Shown: positions 4,111 through 17,980 of the stretch, piece by piece | Layout of the letters: each line of letters starts with the position of its first letter | Position numbering within the stretch: position 1 is the first letter of the stretch | Source of the DNA: a virus | Strand: one strand, 5' to 3' | Virus record (IMG/VR): IMGVR_UViG_3300036944_000960 | Location: 1 to 46,514 of that record | Length of the DNA stretch: 46,514 bases | Position numbers and translations under genes: made by a program | The notes under the pieces: generated by a model | What the model saw: only the letters and a program-made list of their open reading frames with translations | The model's database searches: none | What the model was told of the DNA's origin: nothing

Positions 4111-4175
4111 CTTTTCTAGTTTTTTCTACTTTTTTCGTTTTGGGTATTGCTTTTCAGAAATCGACGCCCTATAAT
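4111..4175 (+). promoter_or_regulatory. Class A decamer promoter for the sigma-factor cassette
   Basis: Three T-tract units with period 10 (cytosines 10 nt apart) run over 4111-4137. The CTAC ends at 4129, exactly 17 nt before the -35 TTGCTT at 4147-4152. A 17-nt spacer containing CAGAAA leads to TATAAT at 4170-4175. Expected transcription start is near 4182, giving a 30-nt leader with AGGAAA ahead of the ATG at 4212. Confidence 0.85.
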
Positions 4176-4211
4176 AAATGTCAGCGGGTAACCGTTCAGG
4201 AAAACAATACA

Positions 4212-4379
4212 ATGGGAAACACTTTCGAGGTAAACGGCGCGTTCTATGCAACCGACGCCGAGACGTTGGCACTACTGCGAAGCTACGCCAAGACCAATAA
4301 CGAGGCGTTCGGCTTGGTTATGATGCTCGGTACGGCTTGGGGTCGAATCATGCCGATTCCGTTTCGGGGGCGGAAATGA
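4212..4379 (+). CDS. Small hypothetical protein, first gene of sigma cassette
   Basis: 55 residues. I chose the ATG at 4212 because CAGGAAAAC lies 10 nt upstream, between the promoter start site and the codon. An upstream in-frame start would lie inside the promoter. The protein has no recognisable domain. It is a short mixed helix with a hydrophobic segment (FGLVMMLGTAWG) near residues 33-44. Its stop overlaps the start of the next small membrane protein by 4 nt (ATGA), so the two are coupled. Function unknown. Confidence 0.65.
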   Translation: MGNTFEVNGAFYATDAETLALLRSYAKTNNEAFGLVMMLGTAWGRIMPIPFRGRK

Positions 4380-4519
4380 AACGCCGCGACGGGTGCGAGT
4401 CGCCGGTTTTCTTTATCTTCATTTTTCTAATTTTCGTCGCTTGGGTTTACCAAGTTCGCGAAAACGAGCAAGCCCGCGAAGCTAGTCTTCGACCGACGAC
4501 CAAGGTAGTAACACGATGA
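4376..4519 (+). CDS. Small single-pass membrane protein ahead of ECF sigma gene
   Basis: 47 residues starting at the ATG that overlaps the previous stop. There is one strongly hydrophobic segment at about residues 10-23 (VFFIFIFLIFVAWV), flanked by basic residues before and a charged tail after, so it is probably a bitopic inner membrane protein with cytoplasmic tail. It overlaps the sigma-like gene downstream by 4 nt. Many cellular ECF sigma factors are cotranscribed with a membrane anti-sigma. This protein is far smaller than known anti-sigmas, so such a role is only a speculation from position. Confidence 0.6.
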   Translation: MKRRDGCESPVFFIFIFLIFVAWVYQVRENEQAREASLRPTTKVVTR

Positions 4520-5031
4520 ACGAAACAACCCTAACCCAATTTGTCAACACGAACCGCCGCCAGTTAGTACACTACGCCGCGCATATCGTCAGAAATCACG
4601 AACTAGCGACCGACGCCGTTAGCGACGCCTACCTTAAAGCGTTGCGAAAGCGAGAAACATTTAAGGGCGAACCGACCCCGAGGGCGGTAAGCGTCTGGTT
4701 TTACCGAGTCTTGCGAAACACTTGCGCCGACTTGGTCAAGTCCGACCGCCTTCGTTCCTGCGTTGGGATTTCCGAACTAACCATCGAACCAGCGACCATC
4801 GACCAAGCCTTCGACGCCGTCGACGACGCCGACCGAATCCGCCGCGCGTTCGGGCTACTGAACGAAAACGAACGGCAAGTCGTTACCATGATTGCCGAGG
4901 GTATCACGATTAACGACGTATCGGCGTCGACCGGGCTTCGGGTGCCAGCGATAAAGAATATCGTTTCACGGCTACGGCGCGCAGTCGGTTACCGGTACGA
5001 AGCGGTACACGCCGTCGCGAGGTTTGCATAA
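4516..5031 (+). CDS. ECF-type RNA polymerase sigma-like factor 1
   Basis: 171 residues. A region-2-like helix bundle at about residues 17-78 (VRNHELATDAVSDAYLKAL, then WFYRVLRNTCADLVKSDRLR) is followed by a linker. A region-4 helix-turn-helix lies at about 112-160 (LLNENERQVVTMIAEGIT, then STGLRVPAIKNIVSRLRRAV). This two-domain layout and length are those of ECF sigma-70 factors, which bind core RNA polymerase and direct it to dedicated promoters. It is coupled to the membrane protein before it and to a second sigma-like gene after it. It could redirect host polymerase to phage promoters. A non-sigma sigma-fold regulator is the main alternative. Confidence 0.75.
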   Translation: MNETTLTQFVNTNRRQLVHYAAHIVRNHELATDAVSDAYLKALRKRETFKGEPTPRAVSVWFYRVLRNTCADLVKSDRLRSCVGISELTIEPATIDQAFDAVDDADRIRRAFGLLNENERQVVTMIAEGITINDVSASTGLRVPAIKNIVSRLRRAVGYRYEAVHAVARFA

Positions 5032-5534
5032 TGCCCGCGACGATGGAAACACTAGGGCGCGCTTTTGATAAGTACGCCGGGTATTGGGTAACGGCGGTAC
5101 GCCCGAGGGTAAGAACGTGGCAAGACGCCGAAGATATGGTCGGCGACGGCGTAGCGACGGCGGCGGCGAACATCGGCAACTGTAAAGCCGACGACGTCGA
5201 AAGCGTAGGGGCTTGGGTTTTCGGCTTCATACGAAACGCCCTTCGCCAGTATTGGGATACTAGACGCCGCCAAGCGAAGGAACGCGCGACCGGCTACGTC
5301 GAAGAATTGACGCCGTACCAACTTCGCCAACTCAAGACCGAGGCGCAAGCCGACGACGGCTTTGCGCTACGCCTCGCGCTACTGCGCGCTTCGTCATACG
5401 ACCGGCAAGTTATCGAACTGATTATCGAAGGGTACACGCTTGCCGAAATCAGCGCGCTTTACGGCGTCACGACGTCGGCGATTTTCGCCAGAATGTCGAA
5501 GGTTCTCGCGTCGGCGAAAAGGCGGGCGGCGTGA
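5031..5534 (+). CDS. ECF-type RNA polymerase sigma-like factor 2
   Basis: 167 residues, starting at an ATG that overlaps the stop of the preceding sigma-like gene (TAATG). A region-2-like segment lies at about residues 9-86 (WQDAEDMVGDGVATAAAN, then VGAWVFGFIRNALRQYWD). A region-4 HTH is at about 117-165 (SSYDRQVIELIIEGYTLAEI, then YGVTTSAIFARMSKVLASA). It is clearly related in plan to its upstream neighbour but diverged in sequence, so it is not a recent duplication. Two adjacent ECF-like genes in a phage are unusual. They may recognise different promoter sets or one may antagonise the other. The assignment rests on motif reading only. Confidence 0.72.
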   Translation: MPATMETLGRAFDKYAGYWVTAVRPRVRTWQDAEDMVGDGVATAAANIGNCKADDVESVGAWVFGFIRNALRQYWDTRRRQAKERATGYVEELTPYQLRQLKTEAQADDGFALRLALLRASSYDRQVIELIIEGYTLAEISALYGVTTSAIFARMSKVLASAKRRAA

Positions 5535-5956
5535 TTCCAATAGTCGAAAAACGCCGGGTATCGCGTTGGTTCTACAACGGTAAAGGATTCCATACCGAAA
5601 CCGCCGCCCTTCGGTTCATCGCCGAAGGCGAACTTAAAACCGCCATGTACCGGCGCGCAAACGAACTGGCGAAACTGAACCCGCCAGTCGTGCCAGAAAC
5701 CGACGATTCGGGCGACGACCTAAAGCCGTACTTACTCCAAGCCTACGCCGAGAAGTTCCCGCATACGGTAGGGCATTGCGACAGATACCGGCACCCGTCG
5801 ACGGTTCGCCCGTGTCGAACATACAACCCGTTTGGCGACGACGGTGTACGGCTACCCATATTCGATTACGCGGTTTGTCGCGTCGCGAAAGCGGAACACC
5901 TCGAAAAGCGCGTCGCCGAGCTACGCGCCGCCGGGGTCGTAAAGGTGAAACAATGA
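5531..5956 (+). CDS. Hypothetical protein downstream of the sigma pair
   Basis: 141 residues, with a GTG start that overlaps the upstream stop by 4 nt (GTGA). The N-terminus (RRVSRWFYNGKGFHTETAAL) looks like a small basic beta-hairpin. The middle has an unusual Cys/His set (HTVGHCDRYRHPSTVRPC) that could bind a metal, and the C-terminus is helical and charged. I do not recognise the family. Tight coupling on both sides shows it belongs to the same cassette. Confidence 0.65.
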   Translation: MIPIVEKRRVSRWFYNGKGFHTETAALRFIAEGELKTAMYRRANELAKLNPPVVPETDDSGDDLKPYLLQAYAEKFPHTVGHCDRYRHPSTVRPCRTYNPFGDDGVRLPIFDYAVCRVAKAEHLEKRVAELRAAGVVKVKQ

Positions 5957-6354
5957 GATTCTATATTCGCAAGCCCGACGGGGAAATAATGACGCCTCAA
6001 GAATGGCGAACCGCCCCGTTTTGCGGTCGAACTGCGTATCGTGCCAGTTTTGGCGAAAACTACTTCGCGGAACCGATTAACGCCGCCGCTTTTGCCGCCG
6101 AAAGCGGCGACGGGTACCGCGTCGTCGAAGCGTCGAACGACGAACAACCGCCCGACCATGAAACGCGATACTTCATTCGCAAGCCGAACGGTATGTTAAT
6201 CGCCGACTTCGACGAAGCGAATGTGTTTTTTCGCGACGCGCAGTTTTACCACCGGCTTGCATGGCGGGGCGGGTTCCTATGTCGCGACTATCCCGACGAA
6301 ATGGCGCGCAGTAAACCAGGTTTTGCCGTCGTACCTCGCGAGGTCTTGAAATGA
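5953..6354 (+). CDS. Hypothetical protein with two repeated IRKP modules
   Basis: 133 residues from the ATG at 5953 (4-nt overlap with the previous gene). It consists of two similar halves. The first opens with FYIRKPDGEIMTPQEW and the second, near residue 77, with YFIRKPNGMLIADFDEA. Each is followed by an aromatic-rich strand and a downstream acidic segment. This suggests an internal duplication of a 60-70-residue domain. I recognise no function. Confidence 0.65.
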   Translation: MRFYIRKPDGEIMTPQEWRTAPFCGRTAYRASFGENYFAEPINAAAFAAESGDGYRVVEASNDEQPPDHETRYFIRKPNGMLIADFDEANVFFRDAQFYHRLAWRGGFLCRDYPDEMARSKPGFAVVPREVLK

Positions 6355-7013
6355 AAATCGGCACCCGGTCGATTTTGTTCGGCGCGCATTGTTGGTTTAT
6401 ACACCCGTGGTTTGTCGCCGCCGCTTGGTCGAAACTGTACGGGTTCCCGACCGACTTGCGTATATGGGTCGCGTTCTTCGTCCATGACCTCGGGTATTGG
6501 GGTAAGCCGAATATCGACGGCGTCGAAGGTGAGTCGCACCCGATTCTAGGGGCGGATATTATGTCGCGCTTCGATCATAAATTTATTGATGATTGCCAAT
6601 ATGCCGACCGCACTTCGTTAGGAAAAATGCGCGCGAAAGGTTGGCGACCGGCGACGTCTGCCGAGTCTATTGTATTGGGCGACCGCACCGAATGGTGGAG
6701 TACTCGCCGTTGGCTTTACGTCTATGAATATCAGCGTACCGACTGGCACGACTTCGTCCTATGTCATTCGCGATACTACGCCGACAAAATCGGTAAGCCG
6801 ACGTCGAAACTGTACGCCGCCGACAAACTCGCTATGATATTGGAACCGGCTTGGCTTTACTTGCCTCGCGTGATTCTATCGGGCGAATACCGCGAGTTTA
6901 AGGAACGGGCAACGTCGAAGTACGGCGTCGCGCCCGAGTTGGTTAGTACGCCGCTTCGTTGGTATCGAATCACGGTCGCCATGATGAAACGGCGGGCGGC
7001 GGGCGAAATCTAG
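6351..7013 (+). CDS. HD-domain-like putative phosphohydrolase
   Basis: 220 residues. Conserved metal-ligand-like positions are His18 (FIHPWFV), the His45-Asp46 pair in FFVHDLGYW, His63 in EGESHPILGA, the CHSRYYADKIG motif near residue 140 and the following AADKL aspartate. This order (H...HD...H...H...D) fits HD-superfamily metal-dependent phosphohydrolases. Similar short proteins occur as uncharacterised genes in many phages. The substrate is unknown; nucleotides or cyclic nucleotides are possible. It is the last gene of the cassette and overlaps its neighbour by 4 nt. Confidence 0.65.
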   Translation: MKIGTRSILFGAHCWFIHPWFVAAAWSKLYGFPTDLRIWVAFFVHDLGYWGKPNIDGVEGESHPILGADIMSRFDHKFIDDCQYADRTSLGKMRAKGWRPATSAESIVLGDRTEWWSTRRWLYVYEYQRTDWHDFVLCHSRYYADKIGKPTSKLYAADKLAMILEPAWLYLPRVILSGEYREFKERATSKYGVAPELVSTPLRWYRITVAMMKRRAAGEI

Positions 7014-7026
7014 TAAATGCGATTCG

Positions 7027-7076
7027 CGACCGAGTAAACCCCGTTTCGGATACTTCGCCGAATCGGGGTTCGGTCG
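7027..7076. terminator. Bidirectional hairpin between convergent genes
   Basis: The main stem AACCCCG (7037-7043) pairs with CGGGGTT (7064-7070), extended inward by TTCGG/CCGAA. An outer arm CGACCGA/TCGGTCG (7027-7033, 7070-7076) and a still more distal GCGATTC/GAATCGC pair enlarge it to about 70 nt. It sits between the plus-strand HD gene and the convergent minus-strand gene ending at 7134. U-tracts are poor, so termination may be factor-assisted. Confidence 0.6.
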
Positions 7077-7133
7077 ATAACTAGAATCGCAAGCGCGCAG
7101 GAATACCCGACCAAAAGGTCGACGCCGAAGTTC

Positions 7134-7505
7134 TTAATTCGCTTCATTGTCGACCATTACGGACAGTTCCGACATACCGCAAACCGTAAGGGCTTCGGTT
7201 TCGACGACGTCGTAGAACACGATTTCGACCCGTGCCAGATAGTCGGCGCATACCTCGGCGTAAGTCGACGCCTCGGTTAGTTCAGCGGGCGCAACGAAAC
7301 CGACTTCTTTCGCGTGTTTCGCATATTGGAGTAAATGACATTTCAGCGCGCCGTAAGTCGCCCAAGTCTTGCCCCGTTTCTTGAATTCTACGCGCGGGCG
7401 TCGGGGCGACGTCAGCGACGCCCAAGACGCCGACGGTACGCCCCCCGGCGAGAATAACCCGGCACGCTTATCGCGTAGCCGGTAAATGGTCGTTTTATCC
7501 GCCAA
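7134..7505 (-). CDS. Hypothetical protein in distal tail region
   Basis: 123 residues, no family recognised. The N-terminal part (TTIYRLRDKRAGLFSPGGVP, then WKRG-like basic residues) resembles short DNA- or RNA-contacting beta segments. The C-terminal half is acidic and helical. It overlaps the stop of the upstream 70-residue gene by 11 nt and is the last minus-strand gene before the convergent terminator. It therefore belongs to the small block attached to the DUF2460 tail gene. Confidence 0.6.
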   Translation of the reverse strand: MADKTTIYRLRDKRAGLFSPGGVPSASWASLTSPRRPRVEFKKRGKTWATYGALKCHLLQYAKHAKEVGFVAPAELTEASTYAEVCADYLARVEIVFYDVVETEALTVCGMSELSVMVDNEAN

Positions 7506-7707
7506 TGGGAACCCCGTACCCGTTCCGCGCCATATCTGCGCGAAGGGCGTCTTCTAAGTCGGCGGCGTCGCGAAGTTGGTCGTCGGTCGCTTCGCACAAT
7601 GCAATAAGCCCGCGAAGCGTCGTCGGCTTACCTTCGGGCGAACGTGCCATTTCGTGCGCGAGGTCGACGACCTCGGCGTTCGTTGGTCGAACCGGTACCC
7701 CTTCCAT
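7495..7707 (-). CDS. Small hypothetical helical protein
   Basis: 70 residues. The start ATG overlaps the stop of the 32-residue gene upstream (TAATG), and the stop overlaps the following gene. The sequence is mostly helical and acidic (NAEVVDLAHEMARSPEG, then CEATDDQLRDAADLEDAL), with no clear domain. It could be a small regulatory or capping protein. Function unknown. Confidence 0.6.
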   Translation of the reverse strand: MEGVPVRPTNAEVVDLAHEMARSPEGKPTTLRGLIALCEATDDQLRDAADLEDALRADMARNGYGVPIGG

Positions 7708-7805
7708 TACTTACCACCTCGGCGGCGCGAATCCCAATTCGCGAAATCCATCGGCGCGACGACCTTAAACCAACAAACCCGAAAGAATCGAATAACGCTT
7801 TCCAT
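7707..7805 (-). CDS. 32-residue small protein between tail gene and helical protein
   Basis: The ATG at 7805 is preceded by AGGTAAACGT, a good ribosome binding site, only 8 nt after the stop of the DUF2460 gene. The TAA overlaps the ATG of the next gene (TAATG). The product starts MESVIRFFRVCWFKVV and has an amphipathic, basic-hydrophobic N-terminal helix. Its size hides it from most gene callers. Coupling on both sides supports it being translated; function unknown. Confidence 0.55.
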   Translation of the reverse strand: MESVIRFFRVCWFKVVAPMDFANWDSRRRGGK

Positions 7806-7813
7806 ACGTTTAC

Positions 7814-8461
7814 CTATTCGCGAACTTCGACAATCTTCGCCGAGATACGACCGACCCGCAACGCCTCAAGATTGAAGCCGACGACGTCGCCGTCGAAGCG
7901 CGCCGGGGTGTCGAAGTGAAAGGCGGCGGCGATAGTTCCCGAGGCGGGGGCGACGCTGAACGTAACGACGCCGGTCGTAAGGTTTACCGACCATCCGGTT
8001 AATTGTTCGACGCCAGCGACGTAAACCTTAACGGTGCCGCCGACCGGCTTCGTAATCGTGCGGGTGTAAGTAAAGCCGCTACGGGTATACGTTTTGACCA
8101 ACTGGAAAGCGACCGTCGCGCCGTTGCCGGTGCCGATAGTTTGCAACGCCCCGAGGTCGACCGAAACGCCGACGCCGGGGGTCATAACGTAACCGGCGTA
8201 GTAATCCGCCCAATCGCGGAACCTGAACGAAAACGCATCGCCTTGCGCGACGGCGACGTAAAAGTTAATCAGGTCTTGTAAACGGGCTTCGTCCCAAAAG
8301 TCGGCGTTAAATGAGTATTCGCGAAGCGGCGTCGACCAACTCTTTATTCTGGTTTCTTGCCCCGAATCCGACGTCGCGGTACGTGTTCGCCACTTAATCG
8401 ACGACGTCGACCCGCGCGAAATGTTGGTCGGAAATAAGGCGTCGCGAAAGTTGGCGGGCAT
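7814..8461 (-). CDS. DUF2460-family distal tail protein (GTA-like)
   Basis: 215 residues. It shows the DUF2460 / TIGR02217 pattern: an N-terminal segment with FNADFWDEARLQDLINFYV and FSFRFRDWADY, then the internal GTGNGATVAFQLVKTYT, ITKPVGGTVKVYVAGVEQ, and the C-terminal FHFDTPARFDGDVV. GTA and siphovirus members form the distal tail ring that links the tube to the hub proteins. It would normally sit next to the DUF2163 gene. Here the two are separated by the plus-strand sigma cassette and three small genes. The leader contains CGTATTGG 15 nt before the ATG. Confidence 0.9.
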   Translation of the reverse strand: MPANFRDALFPTNISRGSTSSIKWRTRTATSDSGQETRIKSWSTPLREYSFNADFWDEARLQDLINFYVAVAQGDAFSFRFRDWADYYAGYVMTPGVGVSVDLGALQTIGTGNGATVAFQLVKTYTRSGFTYTRTITKPVGGTVKVYVAGVEQLTGWSVNLTTGVVTFSVAPASGTIAAAFHFDTPARFDGDVVGFNLEALRVGRISAKIVEVRE

Positions 8462-8486
8462 ACCCGAACCAATACGAGGCGATACG

Positions 8487-8531
8487 TTTTTTCTAGTTTT
8501 GTCACTATTTCAGAAATTGGCGCGTATATAT
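8487..8531 (+). promoter_or_regulatory. Decamer-type promoter variant for a leaderless gene
   Basis: TTTTTTCTAG is followed by GTCACTATTTCAGAAA and GCGTATATAT. The -10-like TATATA lies at 8525-8530, so initiation would fall at or next to the ATG at 8536. The -35 position is poor, and the CTAG-to-CAGAAA spacing is 11 nt (one helical turn) shorter than in the class A promoters. Confidence 0.6.
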
Positions 8532-8535
8532 TTAC

Positions 8536-8919
8536 ATGACTACCGAATACTACGTCGCCGCAACCCGCAAGGGTAACGAGGTCGTCGCGTTCGCCATGAC
8601 AGCACCCGCCGAGGTCGTCACGGTTACAACTACCGACGGGTTTCGATACGACGCGATTCTTCACGAAACGAAGAACGGCTTCGCGGTCGTTTGCCCCTTT
8701 ACCGGTATGCGTTGGTCGTACTCCGACCTTCGCCACAACCCGAAGGCGCGAACGTCGTCGGTTCAGCTTGCCCGCGACGCCGTCGCCAAAATGACGCGCG
8801 AACAATACTTCGACCGCGTTAAAAGACTACGATTTCAGTTCCCGGCTATTTCTTCACTAGCGACCGATAACGAACCCGCCCTTAAAGCGTTGCCTCGGTT
8901 CGTTGGGGGTGCGAAATGA
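8536..8919 (+). CDS. Hypothetical protein, probably translated from leaderless mRNA
   Basis: 127 residues with no recognised family. It is a beta-rich N-terminal half (VVTVTTTDGFRYDAILHET, FAVVCPFTGMRWSYSDL) followed by a basic helical segment (SVQLARDAVAKMTREQYFDR). There is no Shine-Dalgarno sequence before the ATG, and the -10 hexamer ends 5 nt upstream of it. It is monocistronic, closed by a strong terminator. It could be a small nucleic-acid-binding or anti-host protein, but nothing in the sequence decides. Confidence 0.65.
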   Translation: MTTEYYVAATRKGNEVVAFAMTAPAEVVTVTTTDGFRYDAILHETKNGFAVVCPFTGMRWSYSDLRHNPKARTSSVQLARDAVAKMTREQYFDRVKRLRFQFPAISSLATDNEPALKALPRFVGGAK

Positions 8920-8958
8920 AGTAAGCCGCCCGCCCCGTGTCTTGTGTTGTTTCCTTGG

Positions 8959-9000
8959 CTACGCCCGTCGGTTTGCATGATTTCCGACGGGCGTAGTTTT
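8959..9000 (+). terminator. Rho-independent terminator
   Basis: A perfect 13-bp stem CTACGCCCGTCGG / CCGACGGGCGTAG (8959-8971, 8984-8996) is followed by TTTT. It closes the single-gene unit at 8536-8919. Confidence 0.9.
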
Positions 9001-9016
9001 GACCCCTTAAACCCTT

Positions 9017-9439
9017 ATGAATCCCGCCCCCATCATTACAGATTTTCCGACCGTCGCGCCGCCAACGCCCGCCGTCGTGTACCTTAACCCGCACCATGAC
9101 CCCGCCGACGACGTGCCGACGCCGTCGCCTATCGAAGTCGTTCTTAATCGCCCCGCTTGGTCGCATATGGAACCCTTTAACAGTTTGCCCGCGAAGGTCG
9201 TCGCGCGCGACGATTACGACCCGTTCGACAATAAGCCGACCGGGCAAGCGTTCGCGCTGATTCTATTCAAACAGGGCAAGGCGCGCCGGGTATGTATCTC
9301 GCGCCAGTCTAACGGCTTATTTCGTTGTTGGGCGGAAAACCCGAATACGAAGGTCGGGTCGCGTTACATTTCGACCGGCGGCGTCGCCGATATGACGGTC
9401 GCGCAGGTCGGGCAATTTCTCGCCGAGGTCGCCGAATGA
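9017..9439 (+). CDS. Hypothetical proline-rich N-terminus protein
   Basis: 140 residues. The first 45 or so are Pro/Ala-rich and probably disordered. The C-terminal domain contains KQGKARRVCISRQSNGLFRC and a terminal helix. There is no clear ribosome binding site, and the ATG lies only 17 nt after a terminator. Expression may rely on terminator read-through or an unseen promoter. The stop overlaps the next gene by 4 nt. Not recognised. Confidence 0.55.
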   Translation: MNPAPIITDFPTVAPPTPAVVYLNPHHDPADDVPTPSPIEVVLNRPAWSHMEPFNSLPAKVVARDDYDPFDNKPTGQAFALILFKQGKARRVCISRQSNGLFRCWAENPNTKVGSRYISTGGVADMTVAQVGQFLAEVAE

Positions 9440-9699
9440 GCCGACCTATTTTCGAGGTCAATCGACCTATTATTAAGGTCGGCGACGTCGCCAGAATCCG
9501 CCACGAATCGGGTGTATACGCGGGCTTCGTCGTCGTCGGCACCCGCCCGAATTGGTTGAAGGTTCGCACCATCATACCGACGAAGGCGAAGCGGTACGGC
9601 TTTATTCATATCGGCGACGTCGACGCAATCGAACGCGGCGGATTCGGCGACGTCGTGTATTTCCGACCTCCCGTAATGGTTGAAGGTACGGGGGCGTAG
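9436..9699 (+). CDS. Small KOW/SH3-like beta protein
   Basis: 87 residues from the ATG at 9436 (ATGA overlap). IIKVGDVARIRHESGVYAGF is followed by a strand turn and VRTIIPTKAKRYGFIHIGDV. The VGD-type opening resembles small beta-barrel domains that occur repeatedly in this phage, for example in the 15556-16512 protein and the 11133 gene. Its last three codons lie inside the tRNA-Glu gene, so the transcript must be processed through the coding end. Confidence 0.55.
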   Translation: MSRPIFEVNRPIIKVGDVARIRHESGVYAGFVVVGTRPNWLKVRTIIPTKAKRYGFIHIGDVDAIERGGFGDVVYFRPPVMVEGTGA

Positions 9700-9764
9700 T
9701 TCAGCGGTTAGAATTTCGGGCTTTCAACCCGGCGATACGGGTTCGATTCCCGTCGTCCCTACCA
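9690..9764 (+). tRNA. tRNA-Glu (anticodon UUC)
   Basis: 75 nt including encoded CCA. Acceptor GGGGGCG pairs with CGTCCCT (two G-U pairs). The D-stem is GTTC/GAAT. The anticodon stem TCGGG/CCCGG closes the loop CTTTCAA with anticodon TTC. The T-arm ACGGG-TTCGATT-CCCGT is canonical. All landmarks are present, so it is probably functional. Phage tRNAs commonly boost codons frequent in phage genes; GAA is common here. It overlaps the end of the upstream CDS. Confidence 0.9.
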
Positions 9765-9769
9765 AGATT

Positions 9770-9860
9770 TACGGGTTAGCATATGGGTAATGCGGTTGGT
9801 ATCTCGACCAATCCGAAAGGATAAAGCCAGTAGAAGCGGGTTCGAGTCCCGCACCCGTGA
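9770..9860 (+). tRNA. tRNA-like element with long variable region and odd anticodon loop
   Basis: Acceptor TACGGGT/ACCCGTG, D-stem GCAT/ATGC and T-arm GCGGG-TTCGAGT-CCCGC all pair. The anticodon stem GTTGG/CCAAT leaves an 8-nt loop TATCTCGA instead of 7. The variable region is about 24 nt, with a small TCC-GAAA-GGA hairpin. No CCA is encoded. If U33 is the third loop base, the anticodon would read CUC (Glu). It could be a degenerate tRNA or a tRNA-like regulator. Confidence 0.5.
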
Positions 9861-9964
9861 TACGGTCGAAGTTGAACGCCTCGGGTTCGCCCGTTGCACC
9901 CGTCGAACTAGATTCGTCGGCGCGTCGCACAGACTCGCGACCGGCTTCGCAAAAAGACCGACTA

Positions 9965-9995
9965 CCCCGGAACGCATGGAAGCGACCGGGGTTTT
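9965..9995 (+). terminator. Terminator after the tRNA pair
   Basis: CCCCGG (9965-9970) pairs with CCGGGG (9986-9991), followed by TTTT. The next gene starts only 7 nt later. Confidence 0.75.
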
Positions 9996-10001
9996 ATCCT
10001 T

Positions 10002-10217
10002 ATGAGAAAAAAGCCAACCAAAACGACGTCGCAATACGACGCCGAAATCGCAGGAACCCGCCGCGTAATCGCCGTTCATATCGACATAGGCGAACGACTG
10101 CGCGCCCGTTGGGCGGGGTCGCCGATTGCCGAGATAATGGAACGCCAAAACGTCGCGTACCTCTCGAACCTCGAAACGTCGCTTAAAGAATCCGAAGCCG
10201 GTCGACGCGCGGCGTAG
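10002..10217 (+). CDS. Small hypothetical basic protein
   Basis: 71 residues, lysine/arginine-rich at the N-terminus (RKKPTKTTSQYDAEIAGTRR), then a helical central part and SNLETSLKESEAGRRAA at the end. No ribosome binding site is visible and the ATG directly follows the terminator U-tract. The reading frame is consistent with phage codon use, but the start and expression are uncertain. No family recognised. Confidence 0.45.
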   Translation: MRKKPTKTTSQYDAEIAGTRRVIAVHIDIGERLRARWAGSPIAEIMERQNVAYLSNLETSLKESEAGRRAA

Positions 10218-10303
10218 TTTTTCTACTTTTTTCTGTTTAGGTCTTGACAATCAGAAAACGCGCGCCTATAATCTAACTATCGAAGTCGTCGCGACGTCGA
10301 TAG
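10218..10303 (+). promoter_or_regulatory. Class A decamer promoter with perfect hexamers and 5' hairpin
   Basis: TTTTTCTAC/TTTTTTCTG repeats (10218-10235) lie 17 nt upstream of a perfect -35 TTGACA (10244-10249). The 17-nt spacer contains CAGAAA (10252-10257), and TATAAT is at 10267-10272. TTTCTG and CAGAAA form an inverted repeat around the -35. The transcript would begin with a hairpin CTATCGA/TCGATAG (10277-10303) directly before the AGGAAG ribosome binding site. Confidence 0.9.
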
Positions 10304-10309
10304 GAAGCC

Positions 10310-10588
10310 ATGCACGAAACAATCGACTACACCCAACCAACCGACCGACGACCCGCCCTTACCGGCGTCGTCATTTCGCCGACCGCGTTAAGCGACCTTT
10401 TCTTTAACCATGAAAAGCCGAACTACTCGGAGTATTGCGCGAGTAAACAGGCGCAACCGACCGACTTCGACGAAATGTTCGCCGCGATTCTTGAGGACGC
10501 GCAAACATTCGTTCAAAACTACTTAGAAGTAGATTTTGAACGAGCCTTCGCCTATAACCTCGCGTCGGATTTCTGGCACCGATTATGA
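10310..10588 (+). CDS. Hypothetical acidic protein under a perfect promoter
   Basis: 92 residues, acidic and helical in its second half (DFDEMFAAILEDAQTFVQN, then FERAFAYNLASDFWHRL). AGGAAG precedes the ATG by 4-5 nt. It is driven by the strongest sigma70-like promoter in the window, suggesting high expression at the time of activation. Small acidic phage proteins made early often inhibit host enzymes, but no specific motif supports that here. It overlaps the next gene by 4 nt. Confidence 0.65.
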   Translation: MHETIDYTQPTDRRPALTGVVISPTALSDLFFNHEKPNYSEYCASKQAQPTDFDEMFAAILEDAQTFVQNYLEVDFERAFAYNLASDFWHRL

Positions 10589-11070
10589 GCGCGCCCGCCA
10601 CGACCGCCCCGGTTTCGACCGGGGCTTTTTGCCGTTGGTCGCTCCGCTTCGATTGGTGCCAGTCGTGCGGCACCATCGAAAAGAAGCATAAGGGGCGGGG
10701 CTTATGCGCGACCTGCTACGCCGACGACCCGCTTACGCAAGCCCGCCACGCCCGCAACCGCAAGCGGCGCGCGCTGAACATGGACGCCGAGGCGACGGCG
10801 CGCGTCGACGCATATAAGGCGGCTTGGGCGGCGCGCAATCGCGACCGAGTTAACGCCAACTACCGCGCATGGGATAAGCGAACGCAAGCCCGTCGAAAGT
10901 TCGTCGTCGGGTCGTCGTGTTACTACGATATGGGCGGCGTTCGGGTGCCTTGCGTCGTGACGTTCGTAAGCGGCTATCGGGTTCGTGTTCGCCTCGGCGA
11001 CGGCGAGATAGTTCGCACAGCGGCGCAACGGCTTCGGTCAGTCGGCGGCGACTACGGCGACGTTTTGTAA
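10585..11070 (+). CDS. Zinc-ribbon-like hypothetical protein
   Basis: 161 residues. Two CxxC knuckles (CQSCGTIEKKHKGRGLCATC, near residues 25-45) form a likely treble-clef or zinc ribbon. A basic Arg-rich helix follows (ARHARNRKRRALNMDAEATA), with a C-terminal beta segment (SCYYDMGGVRVPCVVTFVSG) of the VGD/KOW-like type. The combination suggests nucleic acid binding. It is cotranscribed with the small acidic protein before it. Confidence 0.6.
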   Translation: MSAPATTAPVSTGAFCRWSLRFDWCQSCGTIEKKHKGRGLCATCYADDPLTQARHARNRKRRALNMDAEATARVDAYKAAWAARNRDRVNANYRAWDKRTQARRKFVVGSSCYYDMGGVRVPCVVTFVSGYRVRVRLGDGEIVRTAAQRLRSVGGDYGDVL

Positions 11071-11126
11071 TTATTTCTACTTTTTTCTTAAAAGGGCTTG
11101 CATTGTAGAAATTGCGCGCCTATAAT
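11071..11126 (+). promoter_or_regulatory. Class A decamer promoter for a leaderless gene
   Basis: TATTTCTACTTTTTTC (CTAC ending 11080) is followed after exactly 17 nt by TTGCAT (11098-11103), then a 17-nt spacer with GTAGAAA, and TATAAT (11121-11126). The predicted start, 7 nt downstream, is the A of the ATG at 11133. Confidence 0.85.
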
Positions 11127-11132
11127 ATCTGT

Positions 11133-11354
11133 ATGGGTTTCTTCAATCCTTCGACCCCCGAGGCGGGACAGCCTCTTTCGACGTTTAAGGTCGGCGACCG
11201 AGTTATTAACTTCGGTACGCTCGGTAAGGTTCTTTCGGTCGAACCTAACGGCGACCTAATCCTTATGTCGGTCGGGCTTACCGGCGACTTTTCAAAATGG
11301 CGCGCTTGCCCGCTGAAATGCCGGTACGCCGACGGCGTGAGGGTCGCGGCGTGA
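11133..11354 (+). CDS. VGD-type small beta protein, leaderless
   Basis: 73 residues from the ATG at 11133; the transcription start predicted from the promoter coincides with this codon, and no ribosome binding site exists. STFKVGDRVINFGTLGKVLS is an SH3/KOW-like opening, comparable to the modules of the 15556-16512 protein. The remainder is a short beta strand set ending in a basic tail. A role in nucleic-acid or ribosome contact is conceivable but not shown. Confidence 0.65.
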   Translation: MGFFNPSTPEAGQPLSTFKVGDRVINFGTLGKVLSVEPNGDLILMSVGLTGDFSKWRACPLKCRYADGVRVAA

Positions 11355-11650
11355 TTACCCGCGTCGCCGACATTTTGCCGGGAATGATTGCGACCTTCGC
11401 GGGCGCATCATTCCTGATTGTTTCCGAATCCCGTCTTTATCCGAAGACGGCAATCTTCGACGACGCGCGCCACGATATTTACGGCGTCGATTACGCGCCC
11501 TTGCGATTGAAGCGAGGTCGACCCGACTTCGACGGCGCGAAGCAATCGGCGCGACCTCACGCGATACAATGTTCCAAAACCGCCGGTTCGGAATTCGTCG
11601 GCGAGGGCTTGGTTATCGAACCCTACGACGCCGAAAAGCATCGCCCCTAA
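11351..11650 (+). CDS. Hypothetical protein coupled to the leaderless gene
   Basis: 99 residues from a GTG that overlaps the upstream TGA by 4 nt (GTGA). It opens with ITRVADILPGMIATFAGASF, another small-barrel-like pattern, followed by a charged middle and a hydrophilic C-terminus. I chose the GTG over upstream in-frame codons because the overlap type matches other junctions in this genome. No family recognised. Confidence 0.55.
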   Translation: MITRVADILPGMIATFAGASFLIVSESRLYPKTAIFDDARHDIYGVDYAPLRLKRGRPDFDGAKQSARPHAIQCSKTAGSEFVGEGLVIEPYDAEKHRP

Positions 11651-11710
11651 AACTCCGCCGCCCCGGTACCCTTTACGGATACACGGGGCAAGGCGCGAAG
11701 CGAGGAATCA

Positions 11711-11908
11711 ATGAGCAAGAAACACGCCGCAACCAATCAGCGACGTAAACCTTTACGCATTACCTCGCCGCTGAACCGCCGCCAATTTCTGCGCGAGTCG
11801 GGTAACGATTTGTTCTTCGGATTCGCGGAACGACTCGGCGTTCGGGGTTGTGATACTCATATAGACATTCACGCCGCCGCCAAGCCCGCCCGCAATCTGG
11901 CGCGATAG
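11711..11908 (+). CDS. Possible small basic protein antisense to the tape-measure 3' end
   Basis: 65 codons from an ATG preceded by GAGGAATCA, a good ribosome binding site. The first 25 codons lie in intergenic DNA; the rest overlap the minus-strand tape-measure gene in antisense. The product begins MSKKHAATNQRRKPLR. The overlap region looks like a shadow of the tape-measure frame, so the original gene may have been truncated by insertion of the plus-strand cassette. Confidence 0.3.
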   Translation: MSKKHAATNQRRKPLRITSPLNRRQFLRESGNDLFFGFAERLGVRGCDTHIDIHAAAKPARNLAR

Positions 11909-14900
11909 CGACGCCGGGATTACGACGCCGCCGTTTCGACTGGCGAAGATTTCGTCGCGACCGTGTTCGTTCATTCTAAACAGTTCGCCAGCGTTTACCG
12001 CGCCGCCGGTCGCGAAGCCGGTCGGGGTTCCGCCCATCATGCCGCCGAACGTACCCGCCGCCGCGCCGCCGCCCGAGTCGCCGCCGATAATGCCGCCGAC
12101 CAAGCCCCGAAGCCCGTTCGATAGGATTCGCCGAATTTCCGACTTCAACCATTCCTGCGCCATTTCCGCAAGCGTCGACCGAAACCCCTCAAGTAGATTT
12201 GAAAAGAACGGTTTAATACCGCCGGTAAACAGCGCGCCGAGCGAATCAGTTAACGTCGTCGAAAAGCCGTCGGCGACTTTGTCCAGCATCCCGACGAATT
12301 GTTCTAATTGTTCGACCTTAAACAGTCGGTTCATATAGTCTTGCGCGCGCGCCATACCGTCGGCGATTCGTTCCGCCGCCGTCGTGCCGTTCCCGAATTC
12401 TTCGGCGAGTTGCTTTAGTTGTTCGCGCGACGCGACCGACTGACTCGAAAGGCGGGTAATCCGTTCGGTAAGTCGGGCGATTTGTTCGCCATACCGTTTA
12501 TCTGCGCCCGCTTGCAATTCGACCCGATACTTAACGACCGCCGCCGTCAGCTTCGACCAAGCCGCCCGCGCCTTTTCCAGCATTTCGACCCGCGCCTTCG
12601 CGTCGTCGTCTTTGTCCAACGCCGCCGCCGCCAACAATGCCGCCGCCTTTTGTTCCTGCGTAAGCGAAGCGTACTTTTCTTTCGATAGTTCGATTTCGAG
12701 TTTATCGACGCGCGTCTTCGCGAGGCGAAGGGCAAGTTCTTCGCGCAGGTTGTCGACGGTTTGCTTTACCCAATCCGACGCCGATTTAATGCCCGCAAGC
12801 CGGTCGGCGTCGCGCTTCGCGGTGGCGGCGTCGACGACCGCCGCGCGGTTCTTTTCGTCGGTTAGGTCGGCGAAGTTCTTGCCGTACTTTTCGATAGCAA
12901 TAGAATCTTCGACGGTCGTCGCCAACGAAGCCCGAGTCGCCCGCACCTGCGCGGCGGTCGATTCGACCAACCCCGAGGTAATCGCGTTAAGAGCTTCGCG
13001 GGTTTTGCGGGCGCGTTCATGGGCTTCGCTTGACAGCGCGAGGTAATACGCTTGCAACCCGAGCAACCGGTTACCCTTTTCGATAATTCCGTTTCGCAGG
13101 TCGTAAGCAATCGACGCCGACTTCGTTTGATTGCTATCTAGTGCGGTCGCTTTCGTCAGTTCGGCAATCGTGCGGCGAAGTTCTTCGGCTTGTTCGTTTA
13201 CCGCCTTCATAGCGGGCGCGGGCGAAAGTCCGTCGCCCTTGCCGCCCGCCATTTTAGGTACACCGGGATTGAACGGCACGAACGCAAGTTTCGCCCGTTC
13301 GCGTTCCTCGAAAAAGAGTTTCGACTTAACCCAATTATCGCGATTTTCGCCTTCGTCTTGTGAACCAAACCCCGGCGAACCGTCGCCGACGCCGACGCCC
13401 TTGCCGGGTAGGTTTCCGGTAATTGCCTTTCGCCCCGCCGCCGCCGAGTCGTTAGCCTTTTTGGCAAAACTGTCTAGCTTATTGGCGAGTTGGTCTAACC
13501 CGCCGAAAATGCCGCCGAAGAATGAGTTAAACGACCGAAGCGACGACGCAAGGGCGGTCGCAATCGTCGACGCGATACCGCCCATAACCGAAATGGTCGT
13601 TACTCGCATCGTGACGAACGCGCCCGACCAATCGCCGGTAAGAACCTGCGCGAAGAACTTAACGCCGCCCTGAATCGCAGTCAAGGCAATCTGAATATAT
13701 CCTTTAATCTGCGCCCATGCAATCGACGCAGTCGCCGCCAACGACTCCCAACCTTTCCGAAGAATGAAGGCGAACGGCGCGAACGCCCGCTTAATCGCCT
13801 CGAACACGTTAACCGCCGCGTCGCGAATCAGCGGGAAATTATTACGCCAGAATGTCACGATCTGAGTAACGACGCCGTCGGTAAAATCGCGAAGCCCGCC
13901 GAAGTTGGTTTTCCACGCGACGACCAAGGCGGCGACGGCGGCGATAACCCAAGTTACCGGGCTTGTTAGGGCGGCGACGGCGACGCCTAGAACGCCCGCC
14001 GAGGCACCGGCGGCAACCAATCCCGGCGCGAGGGTGCCGACCAAGGCGGTAACCGTCGGGATAATCGACGCAAGCCCGCCCAACGCCAAAAGAACCGGCG
14101 CAATCGACGCCGCGAAGATACCGACGCCAATCGCGACGCCCTTCGCCCCGTCAGACAATCCCGAAAGCCAACGAGTAAGACCGCGAACGCCTTCGACGAC
14201 GACGGCAAGCGTCGGCGCGAGTACGTCGCCGAATTCAATCGCCGTAATCTTGAGTTGCTTAACCAGTTCAGCGAAGCCAAATTTCTGCCCGACCATCTGG
14301 CGATTTAACGCCGCTTGCGTTGCGCCCGCGCCGTCGGTCGCCGTCGACATTTTGCCGAGCATATCGGCGTAATCCTTTCCGGCGTTCGACGCCAAAACGG
14401 TAAGACCCTTAAACGCGCGAACCTCGGGCATAATCGTCGCGTATGCCTGTTTATTGTCGCCAATCTTCGCGACGGCGTCGGCAAGCCAACCCGAAAGCCC
14501 CTTCGATTCCAACGCCGCCACGCCGGTTTGAATTCCTAACGCCGCCATAGCGTCGCCCGCTTCTTTCGACGGTTTGACGATATGCAAAATTAGCTGATTA
14601 AGGGCGGTCGCCGACTCGGCGGCGTTAATGCCGTTTCGGGTAAGTACAGCCATACCCGCGCCGACTTCCTGCAACGAAATACCGGCAAGTTTCGCCGACG
14701 GCAAGACGTCGCCGATTTGATTCGCGAGGTCGCCGAAACTGTTAACGCCAAGGTCGACTTCCTTAAATAGAACGTCCATCGCCTCGCGCGCATTATTGAC
14801 GCCGCCGATACCCGAGTTCAGAACCGCCATAAGGGCGCGCGACGAAGTCGCGGTATCGGTCATACCCGCCGAGGCACCCGCCGCCGAAACCTTTAAAATG

Positions 14901-15349
14901 TCCATCGCCTTCGACCCGGCGAAGCCCGAAGAATAAATATCGTAAAGACCGGCGGCAAGGTCTTCGGGGGCTTGTTTAATTCGCCGGTCGTCGGCGAGTA
15001 AAAGAACCTCGCGGCGCATACGGGCGAATTGGTCGCCGGTCATTTTGGCAAGCGAGTCGACGTTACGAAGCCCTTCGTCGAAGTCGCCGGTCGTCTTGAT
15101 AATCGAACGCCCCATAAGGGCAAGCGGCGCAGTAATCGAAATGGCAAGCGTCGCGCCGAGGTTACGCGCGTACCCGCCTACCTTTTCAAACGATTCGCGA
15201 AATGAACCGTCGATATTCTTCGCGCCGGTCTTGGCGTTTTCGCCCATATCGGCGGCGGCTTTCTGTACTTGATTCTTCGACGCGGCGAGCGTTCGCGTTA
15301 AGGCGGAATTATCGCCGGTTAAAATAACCTCAAGTTCAGATACGACCAT
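11753..15349 (-). CDS. Tail tape measure protein
   Basis: 1198 residues. The N-terminus fits the TP901 core of tape measures (NVDSLAKMTGDQFARMRREV, DLAAGLYDIYSSGFAG). There is a central hydrophobic, repeatedly membrane-like region (about 395-480, rich in LALGGLASIIPTV-type stretches), then long heptad-like helices. The C-terminus is glycine-rich with ATGGAVNAGELFRMNEHGRD, the motif common near tape-measure ends. The protein sets tail length; by the usual 0.15 nm per residue the tail would be near 180 nm. Its ATG is the last base pair of a hairpin. It lies downstream of the chaperone genes but separated by small membrane and unknown genes. Confidence 0.95.
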   Translation of the reverse strand: MVVSELEVILTGDNSALTRTLAASKNQVQKAAADMGENAKTGAKNIDGSFRESFEKVGGYARNLGATLAISITAPLALMGRSIIKTTGDFDEGLRNVDSLAKMTGDQFARMRREVLLLADDRRIKQAPEDLAAGLYDIYSSGFAGSKAMDILKVSAAGASAGMTDTATSSRALMAVLNSGIGGVNNAREAMDVLFKEVDLGVNSFGDLANQIGDVLPSAKLAGISLQEVGAGMAVLTRNGINAAESATALNQLILHIVKPSKEAGDAMAALGIQTGVAALESKGLSGWLADAVAKIGDNKQAYATIMPEVRAFKGLTVLASNAGKDYADMLGKMSTATDGAGATQAALNRQMVGQKFGFAELVKQLKITAIEFGDVLAPTLAVVVEGVRGLTRWLSGLSDGAKGVAIGVGIFAASIAPVLLALGGLASIIPTVTALVGTLAPGLVAAGASAGVLGVAVAALTSPVTWVIAAVAALVVAWKTNFGGLRDFTDGVVTQIVTFWRNNFPLIRDAAVNVFEAIKRAFAPFAFILRKGWESLAATASIAWAQIKGYIQIALTAIQGGVKFFAQVLTGDWSGAFVTMRVTTISVMGGIASTIATALASSLRSFNSFFGGIFGGLDQLANKLDSFAKKANDSAAAGRKAITGNLPGKGVGVGDGSPGFGSQDEGENRDNWVKSKLFFEERERAKLAFVPFNPGVPKMAGGKGDGLSPAPAMKAVNEQAEELRRTIAELTKATALDSNQTKSASIAYDLRNGIIEKGNRLLGLQAYYLALSSEAHERARKTREALNAITSGLVESTAAQVRATRASLATTVEDSIAIEKYGKNFADLTDEKNRAAVVDAATAKRDADRLAGIKSASDWVKQTVDNLREELALRLAKTRVDKLEIELSKEKYASLTQEQKAAALLAAAALDKDDDAKARVEMLEKARAAWSKLTAAVVKYRVELQAGADKRYGEQIARLTERITRLSSQSVASREQLKQLAEEFGNGTTAAERIADGMARAQDYMNRLFKVEQLEQFVGMLDKVADGFSTTLTDSLGALFTGGIKPFFSNLLEGFRSTLAEMAQEWLKSEIRRILSNGLRGLVGGIIGGDSGGGAAAGTFGGMMGGTPTGFATGGAVNAGELFRMNEHGRDEIFASRNGGVVIPASLSRQIAGGLGGGVNVYMSITTPNAESFRESEEQIVTRLAQKLAAVQRRGNA

Positions 15350-15377
15350 ACCCCGACCATTACGGATAGTCGGGGTA
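15349..15377 (-). promoter_or_regulatory. Start-codon hairpin of the tape-measure gene
   Basis: A 9-bp perfect stem TACCCCGAC/GTCGGGGTA (15349-15357 with 15369-15377 on the plus coordinates) encloses an 11-nt loop. In the minus-strand RNA the GGGG ribosome site is inside the stem, and the A of the ATG is its last base. This would limit ribosome access unless opened by upstream translation. Confidence 0.55.
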
Positions 15378-15388
15378 CGGCGTCGGGG

Positions 15389-15559
15389 TTACTTCGTGCC
15401 GTCAACGGCGCGACGCCAAGCGCGCAGGAACGCCCGCGCCTTTCGTCGTTCATTCCAGGGGCGAAGGGCGACGGCAATCGCCGCCCATATCCAAACTACG
15501 AACGCGACGCCGAGAGTTAGCCCGACGCCGACGGCGACGCCTTCGATTAACCCTTTCAC
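15389..15559 (-). CDS. Small single-pass membrane protein
   Basis: 56 residues from a GTG overlapping the upstream TGA (GTGA). One transmembrane helix at about residues 6-29 (GVAVGVGLTLGVAFVVWIWA) is followed by a strongly basic C-terminal tail (NERRKARAFLRAWRRA), so cytoplasmic tail and outside N-terminus are likely. Small proteins like this serve as holins or superinfection factors in some phages. Its position before the tape measure does not decide. Confidence 0.6.
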   Translation of the reverse strand: MKGLIEGVAVGVGLTLGVAFVVWIWAAIAVALRPWNERRKARAFLRAWRRAVDGTK

Positions 15560-16512
15560 GCGACCGCCTCGCGAACTAACTCGCCGCCTCGCCATACCGC
15601 GCCGTTGCGAAGTTGGCGCGCGAATTCCTGATTACCATCTTTAATTTCCGACTCGAAAGCCGTTTCGGACATCCACGCCAACGGCTTAACGGCGGTTATG
15701 ATTCGCCCGCAAACGTCGGGAATAATCACGACGTCGCCGACTTGGAACGCGAACGCCTCGGGTTTCTTCGCCGCCGGGTCGGTCGATAGTACGGCGACGA
15801 CGACGCCGTTTCGTTCGACTTTACATCCGCTAAATTCACTCGCGAACTGTTTGAATGAATGACGCCCGCCCGACATTCCACCATGAAAGCCGACCCGATA
15901 AGTCGCGTCGATACCGTCAACATAAGTAACCGTTCGCGTATTGCGGTCGTCGCATTTCCAAGTATCGCCGACCTCGAAAACCATATCGTCGACGTGTACC
16001 GTCGGCGGTTCTGGCACCGGTTCAGGTGCGGGCGGCGTCGACGTCAGTATCGCGACGTATTCGCCGCCGCGAGAAACCCCGGCGCGGTCGAATAACTTAT
16101 ATTGCCCGCCTATCCAAGTATCGGGCGCACCTCGCCCGATACGGTACTTAACCCCGTCGGTTATGGTCGTGATAATGCGAACCCGACCGTCGGTACAATG
16201 GCACCGGTCGCCGACCAAAAAGGCGAACGCGCCGACGTACTCAGTCGGCAAGACCTGAACCGCGACGGTTTGCGATTCGCCCGCCGCGACGTCGACGCCG
16301 ATAGTCGGGCAAGTCGCGAAGGTTGACGACGGCGGTTTAAGTCCATCGCCGACGGCGAGGTTCCAAGCCGCCGACGCTTCATCGAAGCCCGCTTCGACTT
16401 GAATCAGGTCGTCGGCGCATTTAACCGCCGAAGTTACGTCGTTGGGCGAAACGGGTCGACGTTGCGCCGTCGTCGCGAGTAGCATCGCCGCGATTGTTAA
16501 TCGTTCGTTCAT
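15556..16512 (-). CDS. Hypothetical protein with three VGD beta modules
   Basis: 318 residues. An N-terminal hydrophobic segment (LTIAAMLLATTA) may be a weak signal or anchor. Three repeats follow, opening FAFLVGDRCHCTDGRVRI, MVFEVGDTWKCDDRNTRT and FAFQVGDVVIIPDVCGRI, separated by Pro-rich linkers (PPAPEPVPEPP). Each repeat looks like a small KOW/SH3-like barrel carrying cysteines. The leader contains CGTAAGGGG 15 nt upstream. It could be a secreted or virion-decorating protein. The family is not recognised. Confidence 0.6.
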   Translation of the reverse strand: MNERLTIAAMLLATTAQRRPVSPNDVTSAVKCADDLIQVEAGFDEASAAWNLAVGDGLKPPSSTFATCPTIGVDVAAGESQTVAVQVLPTEYVGAFAFLVGDRCHCTDGRVRIITTITDGVKYRIGRGAPDTWIGGQYKLFDRAGVSRGGEYVAILTSTPPAPEPVPEPPTVHVDDMVFEVGDTWKCDDRNTRTVTYVDGIDATYRVGFHGGMSGGRHSFKQFASEFSGCKVERNGVVVAVLSTDPAAKKPEAFAFQVGDVVIIPDVCGRIITAVKPLAWMSETAFESEIKDGNQEFARQLRNGAVWRGGELVREAVA

Positions 16513-16709
16513 TGGTTACCCCTTACGACGTGAGTCGAAACCGACCGACCATCGGCGCACCGGTACACGTTAAGCCCGCCGCGCGTCGTGCCGACGAAGT
16601 CGGGTTTCTGGCACCCGACGAACGGGTCGACCAACGGCACGGTAAGCCAACCGACGGCGGCGGCGACGCACACCGCTAGGATTACGGCGAGGCGTTCGGC
16701 GCGCTTCAT
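16509..16709 (-). CDS. Small membrane or exported hypothetical protein
   Basis: 66 residues. A basic start (MKRAERLAV) is followed by a hydrophobic helix (ILAVCVAAAVGWLTV, about residues 9-23), then a short exported-type domain with two cysteines (VGCQKPDF and YRCADG) that could form a disulfide. The layout resembles small periplasmic phage proteins such as superinfection or spanin-like factors. It overlaps both neighbours by 4 nt. Confidence 0.55.
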   Translation of the reverse strand: MKRAERLAVILAVCVAAAVGWLTVPLVDPFVGCQKPDFVGTTRGGLNVYRCADGRSVSTHVVRGNQ

Positions 16710-17077
16710 ACGGCGGCGACCTCGGCGGCTTCGGCGTCGGCGACGGCTTTAAGGTAGGCGTCGACGTCGTAAGGCGTCACGGTTTCGCCTGCTGAAATCG
16801 CGGAACAAGCTATCTCGCTAACGAGGTCGGCGAGTTGCGTACATAGTCGCTTCGTCGCGATTGCGGTGTCTAACTCGCCTTGTTTCATCGCACCGTTAAG
16901 GGTTTGGTCGGCGGCGTTAAGGGCGGTCGTAAACAATCCGATCATCTTTTCATAGACCGGAACGTCGAACGTGTCCAGCGTCGCGGCGATAGCTGAGTTA
17001 ATGGGCGTCGCGACGGCGTAGCAATACGCGCGAACTTGGTCGGTCGTCGGGTTCGGGTTCGTTTCTTTTTCTGGCAT
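16706..17077 (-). CDS. Hypothetical helical protein
   Basis: 123 residues, mostly alpha-helical (YEKMIGLFTTALNAADQTLN, LCTQLADLVSEIACSAIS) with an Ala-rich acidic C-terminus. No domain recognised. It starts a four-gene minus-strand block that leads into the tape measure. The upstream 50 nt carry the class A promoter on the opposite strand, so its own transcription probably comes from read-through. Confidence 0.55.
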   Translation of the reverse strand: MPEKETNPNPTTDQVRAYCYAVATPINSAIAATLDTFDVPVYEKMIGLFTTALNAADQTLNGAMKQGELDTAIATKRLCTQLADLVSEIACSAISAGETVTPYDVDAYLKAVADAEAAEVAAV

Positions 17078-17138
17078 TGTGTTACCTATGCGTCGACGAC
17101 GATTCGCGTCGACCTGTTAGTTATACGGTTCAGAAACC

Positions 17139-17195
17139 CTTTTTTCTACTTTTTTCTGCAAAATGGTTGCAATTCAGAAAACGACCGCCTATAAT
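17139..17195 (+). promoter_or_regulatory. Class A decamer promoter with no clear downstream gene
   Basis: TTTTTTCTACTTTTTTCTG, exactly 17 nt, TTGCAA (17167-17172), 17 nt with CAGAAA (17175-17180), TATAAT (17190-17195). An extra TTCAGAAAC copy lies just upstream at about 17129-17137. It points rightward into the antisense of the FxLYD gene, and no convincing plus-strand gene follows. It may make an antisense or small RNA. Confidence 0.8.
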
Positions 17196-17340: not shown

Positions 17341-17794
17341 ATGTAACTTCGCCGACCTTGAACGTCGACCCGGCTTTCGCCTCGGTAGCCAACGCCTTAA
17401 ACTTCCATTTCTGCCCCGGTTCGATGTTATTCGCGTTCGCCAACGTCGAACCGAGTACGCCGCCGTCCTTGTCCAGTATGTTTATCTGAATCTGAACATA
17501 CGACCAACGCTTCGCCGTCTGATTCGTCACGGTGCCGACGACGAACGGTATCGACCCGTCGCTTTTCCAGTTCAACCCGTCGACGGCGTAGGGCGGCTTT
17601 TCAACGGGTGGGGCGACCTCGCGTTCGACTTCCCTTTCGACCTGCGCGGGTTTCGTTGGCACGTCGACGCCCTTCGGTGCGCTGGCACCTATCGCGGCGA
17701 AGGTGAGTACAAGACAGGGGCAACCCGACAAAATGACTAGAATCGCCCATACTGGCACCTTGGCGCGTTGCGGGTTCGGAGTTAAGTTATTCAT
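17333..17794 (-). CDS. FxLYD-domain membrane-anchored protein
   Basis: 153 residues from the ATG at 17794, which overlaps the RHH gene stop by 8 nt. A transmembrane helix at about 14-36 (VWAILVILSGCPCLVLTFAA) is followed by a Glu/Val/Pro linker. The C-terminal FxLYD domain contains FVVGTVTNQTAKRWSYVQIQ, ILDKDGGVLGST and PGQKWKFKAL. FxLYD domains occur in bacterial surface and lipoproteins of unknown role. In a prophage this could be a lysogenic conversion protein. It is paired with a ribbon-helix-helix regulator, suggesting autoregulated expression from the lysogen. Confidence 0.75.
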   Translation of the reverse strand: MNNLTPNPQRAKVPVWAILVILSGCPCLVLTFAAIGASAPKGVDVPTKPAQVEREVEREVAPPVEKPPYAVDGLNWKSDGSIPFVVGTVTNQTAKRWSYVQIQINILDKDGGVLGSTLANANNIEPGQKWKFKALATEAKAGSTFKVGEVTYY

Positions 17795-17966
17795 CTTCTT
17801 TTTTCTTTTCTTTATGGCGATAGGCGGCAAGTTCGCGACGCATATACCGTTCTAGGCGGCGACTCATTGTCGTACCGAGGGCGTCACACATCGCCCGGTA
17901 TTCCTGATAAATTGCGGGGTCGAATGTCAGCCCGAAAGATTTTCGATTAGGCTTTTTTGAATTCAT
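17787..17966 (-). CDS. Ribbon-helix-helix (Arc/CopG-type) regulator
   Basis: 59 residues, too short for most ORF lists. The N-terminal strand KSFGLTFDPAIYQEYRAM and helix DALGTTMSRRLERYMRREL give the ribbon-helix-helix fold of Arc/CopG/MetJ-type DNA binders, with a lysine-rich tail. Just upstream, in the divergent promoter, is the perfect palindrome TAAATTCAGGTTGAATTTA. That is the expected operator type, so it likely represses itself and the plus-strand 18093 operon. It overlaps the FxLYD gene. Confidence 0.7.
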   Translation of the reverse strand: MNSKKPNRKSFGLTFDPAIYQEYRAMCDALGTTMSRRLERYMRRELAAYRHKEKKKEDE

Positions 17967-17980
17967 TTTGTAAAAATAAT

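Follow-up and report, generated by a model that had tools for sequence, protein, structure and literature searches.

The window analysed here, a 46.5-kb viral record (46,514 nt), belongs to a temperate tailed phage whose terminase, portal, capsid and tail genes lie on the minus strand and which carries a tyrosine integrase gene at 42641. About 1.3 kb from the integrase, positions 44995–45060 of the minus strand resemble the 3′ half of a tRNA-Thr gene (anticodon CGT) and could form the attP core; a host search by means of this attP-like tRNA 3′ end found no match in two phyla (392 and 296 genomes). The minus-strand tail genes are interrupted by plus-strand accessory genes with the promoters that we call class A.

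Predicted class A promoters among the tail genes

The TATAAT hexamers of the four class A sites, as read directly on the plus strand, are at 4170, 10267, 11121 and 17190. The original prediction had described four plus-strand sites at which TTTCTAC, a -35 and a -10 hexamer keep fixed spacings, and all four are where it had placed them: the pattern TTTCTAC-N17-TTGNNN-N17-TATAAT has four exact matches on the plus strand of the window, none on its minus strand and none in 300 simulated genomes (third-order Markov). Aligned on TATAAT, the sites give the consensus T(T/A)TTTCTACTTTTTTC-N10-TTG-N5-(C/T)AGAAA-N9-TATAAT, with fixed spacing and 32 of 55 columns invariant. Since the identity of the 40-nt flanks (24% and 30%) is that of the background, a recent block duplication was ruled out as the source of this match. 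Among the repeat families of the window, that of the class A sites is the largest. With leave-one-out profiles, the omitted site was recovered at 59–67 bits in each of the four cases, the next best genomic site scoring at most 12 bits and the simulated genomes at most 7, so that more than 45 bits separate each class A site from everything else.

All four cores have hexamers of the sigma70 type at a spacing within 16–18 nt (TTGNNN-N17-TATAAT), the core at 10244–10272 being a perfect 12/12 consensus, TTGACA-N17-TATAAT. Their reading as promoters for the housekeeping, sigma70-type sigma factor is credible and supported by these features, and the placement of the translation signals fits the predicted transcription starts, with an SD sequence for the ATGs at 4212 and 10310 and an ATG at the predicted +1 at 11133.

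Promoter 1 (4113–4175, plus strand) contains at 4123 the 11-mer TTTCTA[C/G]TTTT, hereafter the tag, with an additional TTTCTAG 10 nt upstream, at 4113, and continues with TTGCTT and TATAAT (4170–4175). The first ATG with an SD sequence, at 4212, belongs to a small ORF, which is followed by a cassette with two consecutive ECF-like sigma factor genes (4516–5534, plus strand; Sigma70_r2 and r4_2). These two genes overlap by one base, and a third protein with sigma region 2 is encoded at 35516–36589 on the minus strand. A divergent fifth member of the family (8490–8530, plus strand) reads TTTCTAGTTTT ... TTTCAGAAA ... CGTATATA and ends 5 nt before the ATG at 8536. Inside the second accessory cluster, at 9690–9861 on the plus strand, there is a tRNA-Glu gene together with another, irregular tRNA-like gene.

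Promoter 2 (10218–10272, plus strand), which has the perfect core, precedes a gene of 92 aa with an SD sequence (10310–10588). As a strong intrinsic terminator (10606–10630, plus strand; a GC stem plus T5) lies behind this gene, promoter, gene and terminator make up a self-contained unit (10218–10630). No strong intrinsic terminator was found after the remaining cassettes, and possession of both an own promoter and an own terminator is clear for 10218–10630. At promoter 3 (11072–11126, plus strand), the ATG at 11133 lies 7 nt behind the -10 hexamer and falls exactly on the start site predicted from it, and the mRNA is predicted to be leaderless. Downstream of promoter 4 (17141–17195, plus strand; TATAAT at 17190) there is no ATG-initiated ORF of at least 40 aa, and a search for a non-coding RNA behind 17190 gave neither an Rfam match nor an unusual RNA fold. 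Note that a ribbon-helix-helix-like ORF on the minus strand (17790–18019) diverges from an untagged promoter, TTGAAT-N17-TATAAT, at 17991.

The accessory genes had been taken for inserted cassettes, for which composition offers no support: the GC content of the cassettes is 56.5–57.4%, versus 56.8% for the late backbone. They resemble morons in that genes placed between late genes have their own promoter, and once also their own terminator, but they differ from them in their unexceptional composition and in a promoter tag that is common to the early operons.

The tag in the early region

Of all AT-rich 11-mers in the window, TTTCTACTTTT is the most frequent, and TTTCTA[C/G]TTTT occurs nine times in it, versus about 0.05 expected. 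All the copies are intergenic and in the sense orientation, and each of them, except that of the 17143 site, has a same-strand gene directly downstream. Contrary to the view that the tag is a feature of the late region, copies also occur at 39217 and 43769 on the plus strand and at 38497 on the minus strand. The minus-strand copy (38487–38497) belongs to the region of the leftward early promoter, which diverges from a candidate CI-like repressor gene (38527–39195, plus strand), and the copy at 39217–39227 lies in the rightward early promoter region, directly after that gene, with TATACATA 26 nt downstream of where the tag begins. The third copy (43769–43779) is found between the integrase stop codon and the gene at 43805–44356, with CGTATATC after it; the spacing, measured from tag to CGTATA, is identical to that at 39217. 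These early tagged sites have no recognisable -35 hexamer and an ambiguous -10, and are thus not of the sigma70 hexamer type. The presence of the tag at both early promoters and before gene 43805 indicates a phage-wide tag of early and accessory promoters; judged from its placement, it marks early and accessory transcription units.

The assignment of the repressor candidate relies on weak HTH_31 and Peptidase_S24 matches (E about 0.02); no relatives of it were found in phages or plasmids, nor among the capsid relatives of the phage. In temperate phages, a repressor gene usually lies between the early promoters that its product controls. A comparison of the 8-mers shared between promoter regions showed that the early regions on either side of the repressor gene have, except for the tag, no sequence longer than 8 nt in common. 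The same site is found at early promoters and at dispersed loci, as are operators of the P1 C1 and L5 type. We predict that near-identical strong promoters tagged with TTTCTACTTTT front the scattered accessory genes and both early operons; because the tag is shared, one common signal probably switches them together.

Possible modes of tag recognition

The original prediction had combined an UP-like T-tract block with a shared control signal at credible sigma70 promoters before plus-strand genes, a combination that the sequence supports, the control being presumably common. The YAGAAA motif begins 8 nt past the start of the -35 hexamer at all four class A sites, as proposed. The second TTTCT, 10 nt after the first, is exact at three of the four (promoter 1, with its tag at 4123, reads TTTCG), and the inverted repeat TTTCTG...CAGAAA is exact at 10218 and 17139 and inexact at the other two. 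As to the suggestion that T-tracts recurring every 10 bp bend the DNA, the class A sites rank in the top 0.04–1.7% of 60-bp windows for predicted bend, according to a crude A-tract phasing model, the bend coming mostly from two phased tracts; at least four are present only at 4111.

Could the tag be an UP element and nothing else? If it served only for alpha-CTD docking and curvature, the promoters would be strong on the host polymerase with no phage regulator, constitutive in the manner of T4 early or moron promoters. The class A T-run at -52 to -47 coincides with the position of the T-run in the E. coli UP consensus (Estrem); the phased tracts, the near-consensus cores and the self-contained unit at 10218–10630 also fit. 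UP elements are made up of subsites (PMC4390567), and of the A/T-rich block expected at -59 to -38, the distal half is T-rich and in position, while the proximal half (-45 to -38) is not conserved and invariant Cs lie inside. Indeed, the tag has a conserved C at position 4 and a C, sometimes a G, at position 7, neither of which is needed by an UP element. Their invariance in a T-rich tag that is also the only long sequence common to the early promoters argues for a sequence-specific phage regulator. Since UP function alone leaves unexplained these Cs, the invariant AGAAA of the spacer and the other distances at which the same 11-mer stands from the weak, -35-less early cores, we consider it doubtful as the whole explanation, and favor the binding of a repressor.

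Our first choice, to which we would give a little short of an even chance, is therefore a phage repressor acting on dispersed asymmetric operators, on top of UP-like promoter strength. The core of the late-region members would be a housekeeping-sigma -35/-10 promoter, and the asymmetric 11-mer TTTCTA[C/G]TTTT stands upstream of it, in the sense orientation, before the scattered accessory genes as before both early operons. The T-rich block at the distal UP subsite (-59 to -46) would probably aid the host RNA polymerase via alpha-CTD and curvature. A sequence-specific phage protein would most likely contact the AGAAA of the spacer and those invariant bases of the tag that are not A or T. This protein would most probably be the product of the CI-like repressor gene that the two early tags flank, and it would keep the early operons, together with the scattered accessory genes, in a single lysogeny regulon, like the P1 C1 and L5 repressors. 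The position of the repressor gene, the tag as the sole shared operator candidate of more than 8 nt and the P1 and L5 precedents all favor this reading, in which we infer repression rather than activation. Several features speak against it: the repressor candidate is assigned from weak HMM matches, the class A tag lies upstream of the -35 hexamer (-59 to -49), where a simple repressor would not usually bind, and the missing -35 and ambiguous -10 of the early promoters fit an activator or another sigma factor equally well.

Activation, by an early phage protein that would bind the tag and recruit the host polymerase, replacing the -35 hexamer at 39217 and 43769 like a MotA box, is unlikely. The early tagged promoters do lack TTG, the tag-to-TATA distances of 26 and 47 are two helical turns apart, and T4 middle promoters have a MotA box instead of a -35 hexamer (PMC2988021), but class A promoters, with a core as good as 12/12, should need no activator, and no candidate activator was identified. 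The least probable alternative is that the phage's own ECF-like sigma factors, two of which are encoded in the first cassette, read part of the family: four sites (39218+, 43770+, 8500+ and 38484-) fit [TTCTAC or TGTCAC]-N17-CGTATA, a layout that resembles known ECF promoters, but the pattern was fitted after the fact, has five other AC-N17-CGTATA matches, some within genes, and leaves class A unexplained.

The repressor reading has its closest parallels among known dispersed operators. The C1 operators of P1, 22 in number (PMC8546580), are asymmetric, likewise dispersed over a temperate phage genome and tied to the promoters of scattered genes; the P1 site is a 17-mer of different sequence whose binding is proven in P1, while binding is predicted here. 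The binding sites of L5-type repressors are asymmetric 13-mers, more than 20 of them, that follow the direction of transcription (PMC9283540). These Cluster A stoperators are, like the tag, short, asymmetric, intergenic, oriented with transcription and probably phage-specific, but they number more than 20 and also stop elongation, whereas each of the nine tags precedes a promoter core. In T4, UP elements and near-consensus cores occur together in the early promoters (PMC2988021), which share with class A the UP-like T/A tracts, the near-consensus sigma70 core and an extra phage-specific consensus; T4, however, has TGn, which class A lacks, its spacer having a fixed AGAAA. The SAS/ESAS repeats of Cluster K mycobacteriophages are also phage-specific and adjoin the starts of non-structural genes, but SAS sits at the ribosome-binding site, with 3–7 bp between it and the start codon, and its role is regarded as translational.

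Dispersed sets in related phages

The absence of the motif from related phages had been named as half of one case against the prediction; it is absent from about 26 capsid relatives (38–51% identity). Strict and relaxed patterns for the motif gave no match, or only AT-rich chance matches, in the viral contigs of IMG/VR. The motif was not found in L107 either, a relative in its tail and HD genes with the same GC content, and searches for relatives of the sigma and early genes found none. One near-identical contig matches only 24957–29324 of the window. Positions 9218–9862 of L107 encode the homolog of the tail gene at 7814–8461; with respect to the genes around it, its strand is the reverse of that in the window.

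One capsid relative, G007 (L054–L056), carries a different dispersed promoter family of its own, in which TACAAT is embedded in GTGTACAATGT, with seven exact copies and a variant at 17145. The sequence around TACAAT is of the GTGTACAATGTAC type and in most cases follows TTGCCT-N17; a near-palindromic GTGTACAATGTACAC covers the -10 at several sites (e.g. L054:12991, 15729 and 17147), and several have an ATG a few nt downstream, often within 10 nt. This different set suggests that the strategy is common to relatives and the sequence is not. In another relative, G020 (L068–L070), repeated inverted-repeat units GAAACGTCTTTGCATGTGACCGC...GGTACACGGCAAAGACGTTTC lie inside or beside genes (e.g. 47737, 49855 and 53327).

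A broader reading appears rather improbable to us, namely that one asymmetric 11-mer, which a phage protein would read from various distances upstream of the -35 that keep the helical phase, controls both early operons and all the scattered accessory genes, and that relatives have replaced the whole set by a different motif, operator specificity turning over genome-wide at once.

Dispersed control elements are already known in other phages; the sequence of this tag is new. It offers an entry, at the level of sequence, into the regulatory circuit of a little-known group of temperate phages, and predicts which of the scattered orphan genes are coexpressed. Should the relatives really each have a dispersed set of their own, it becomes a testable question how the specificity of a repressor shifts in step with that of all its sites.
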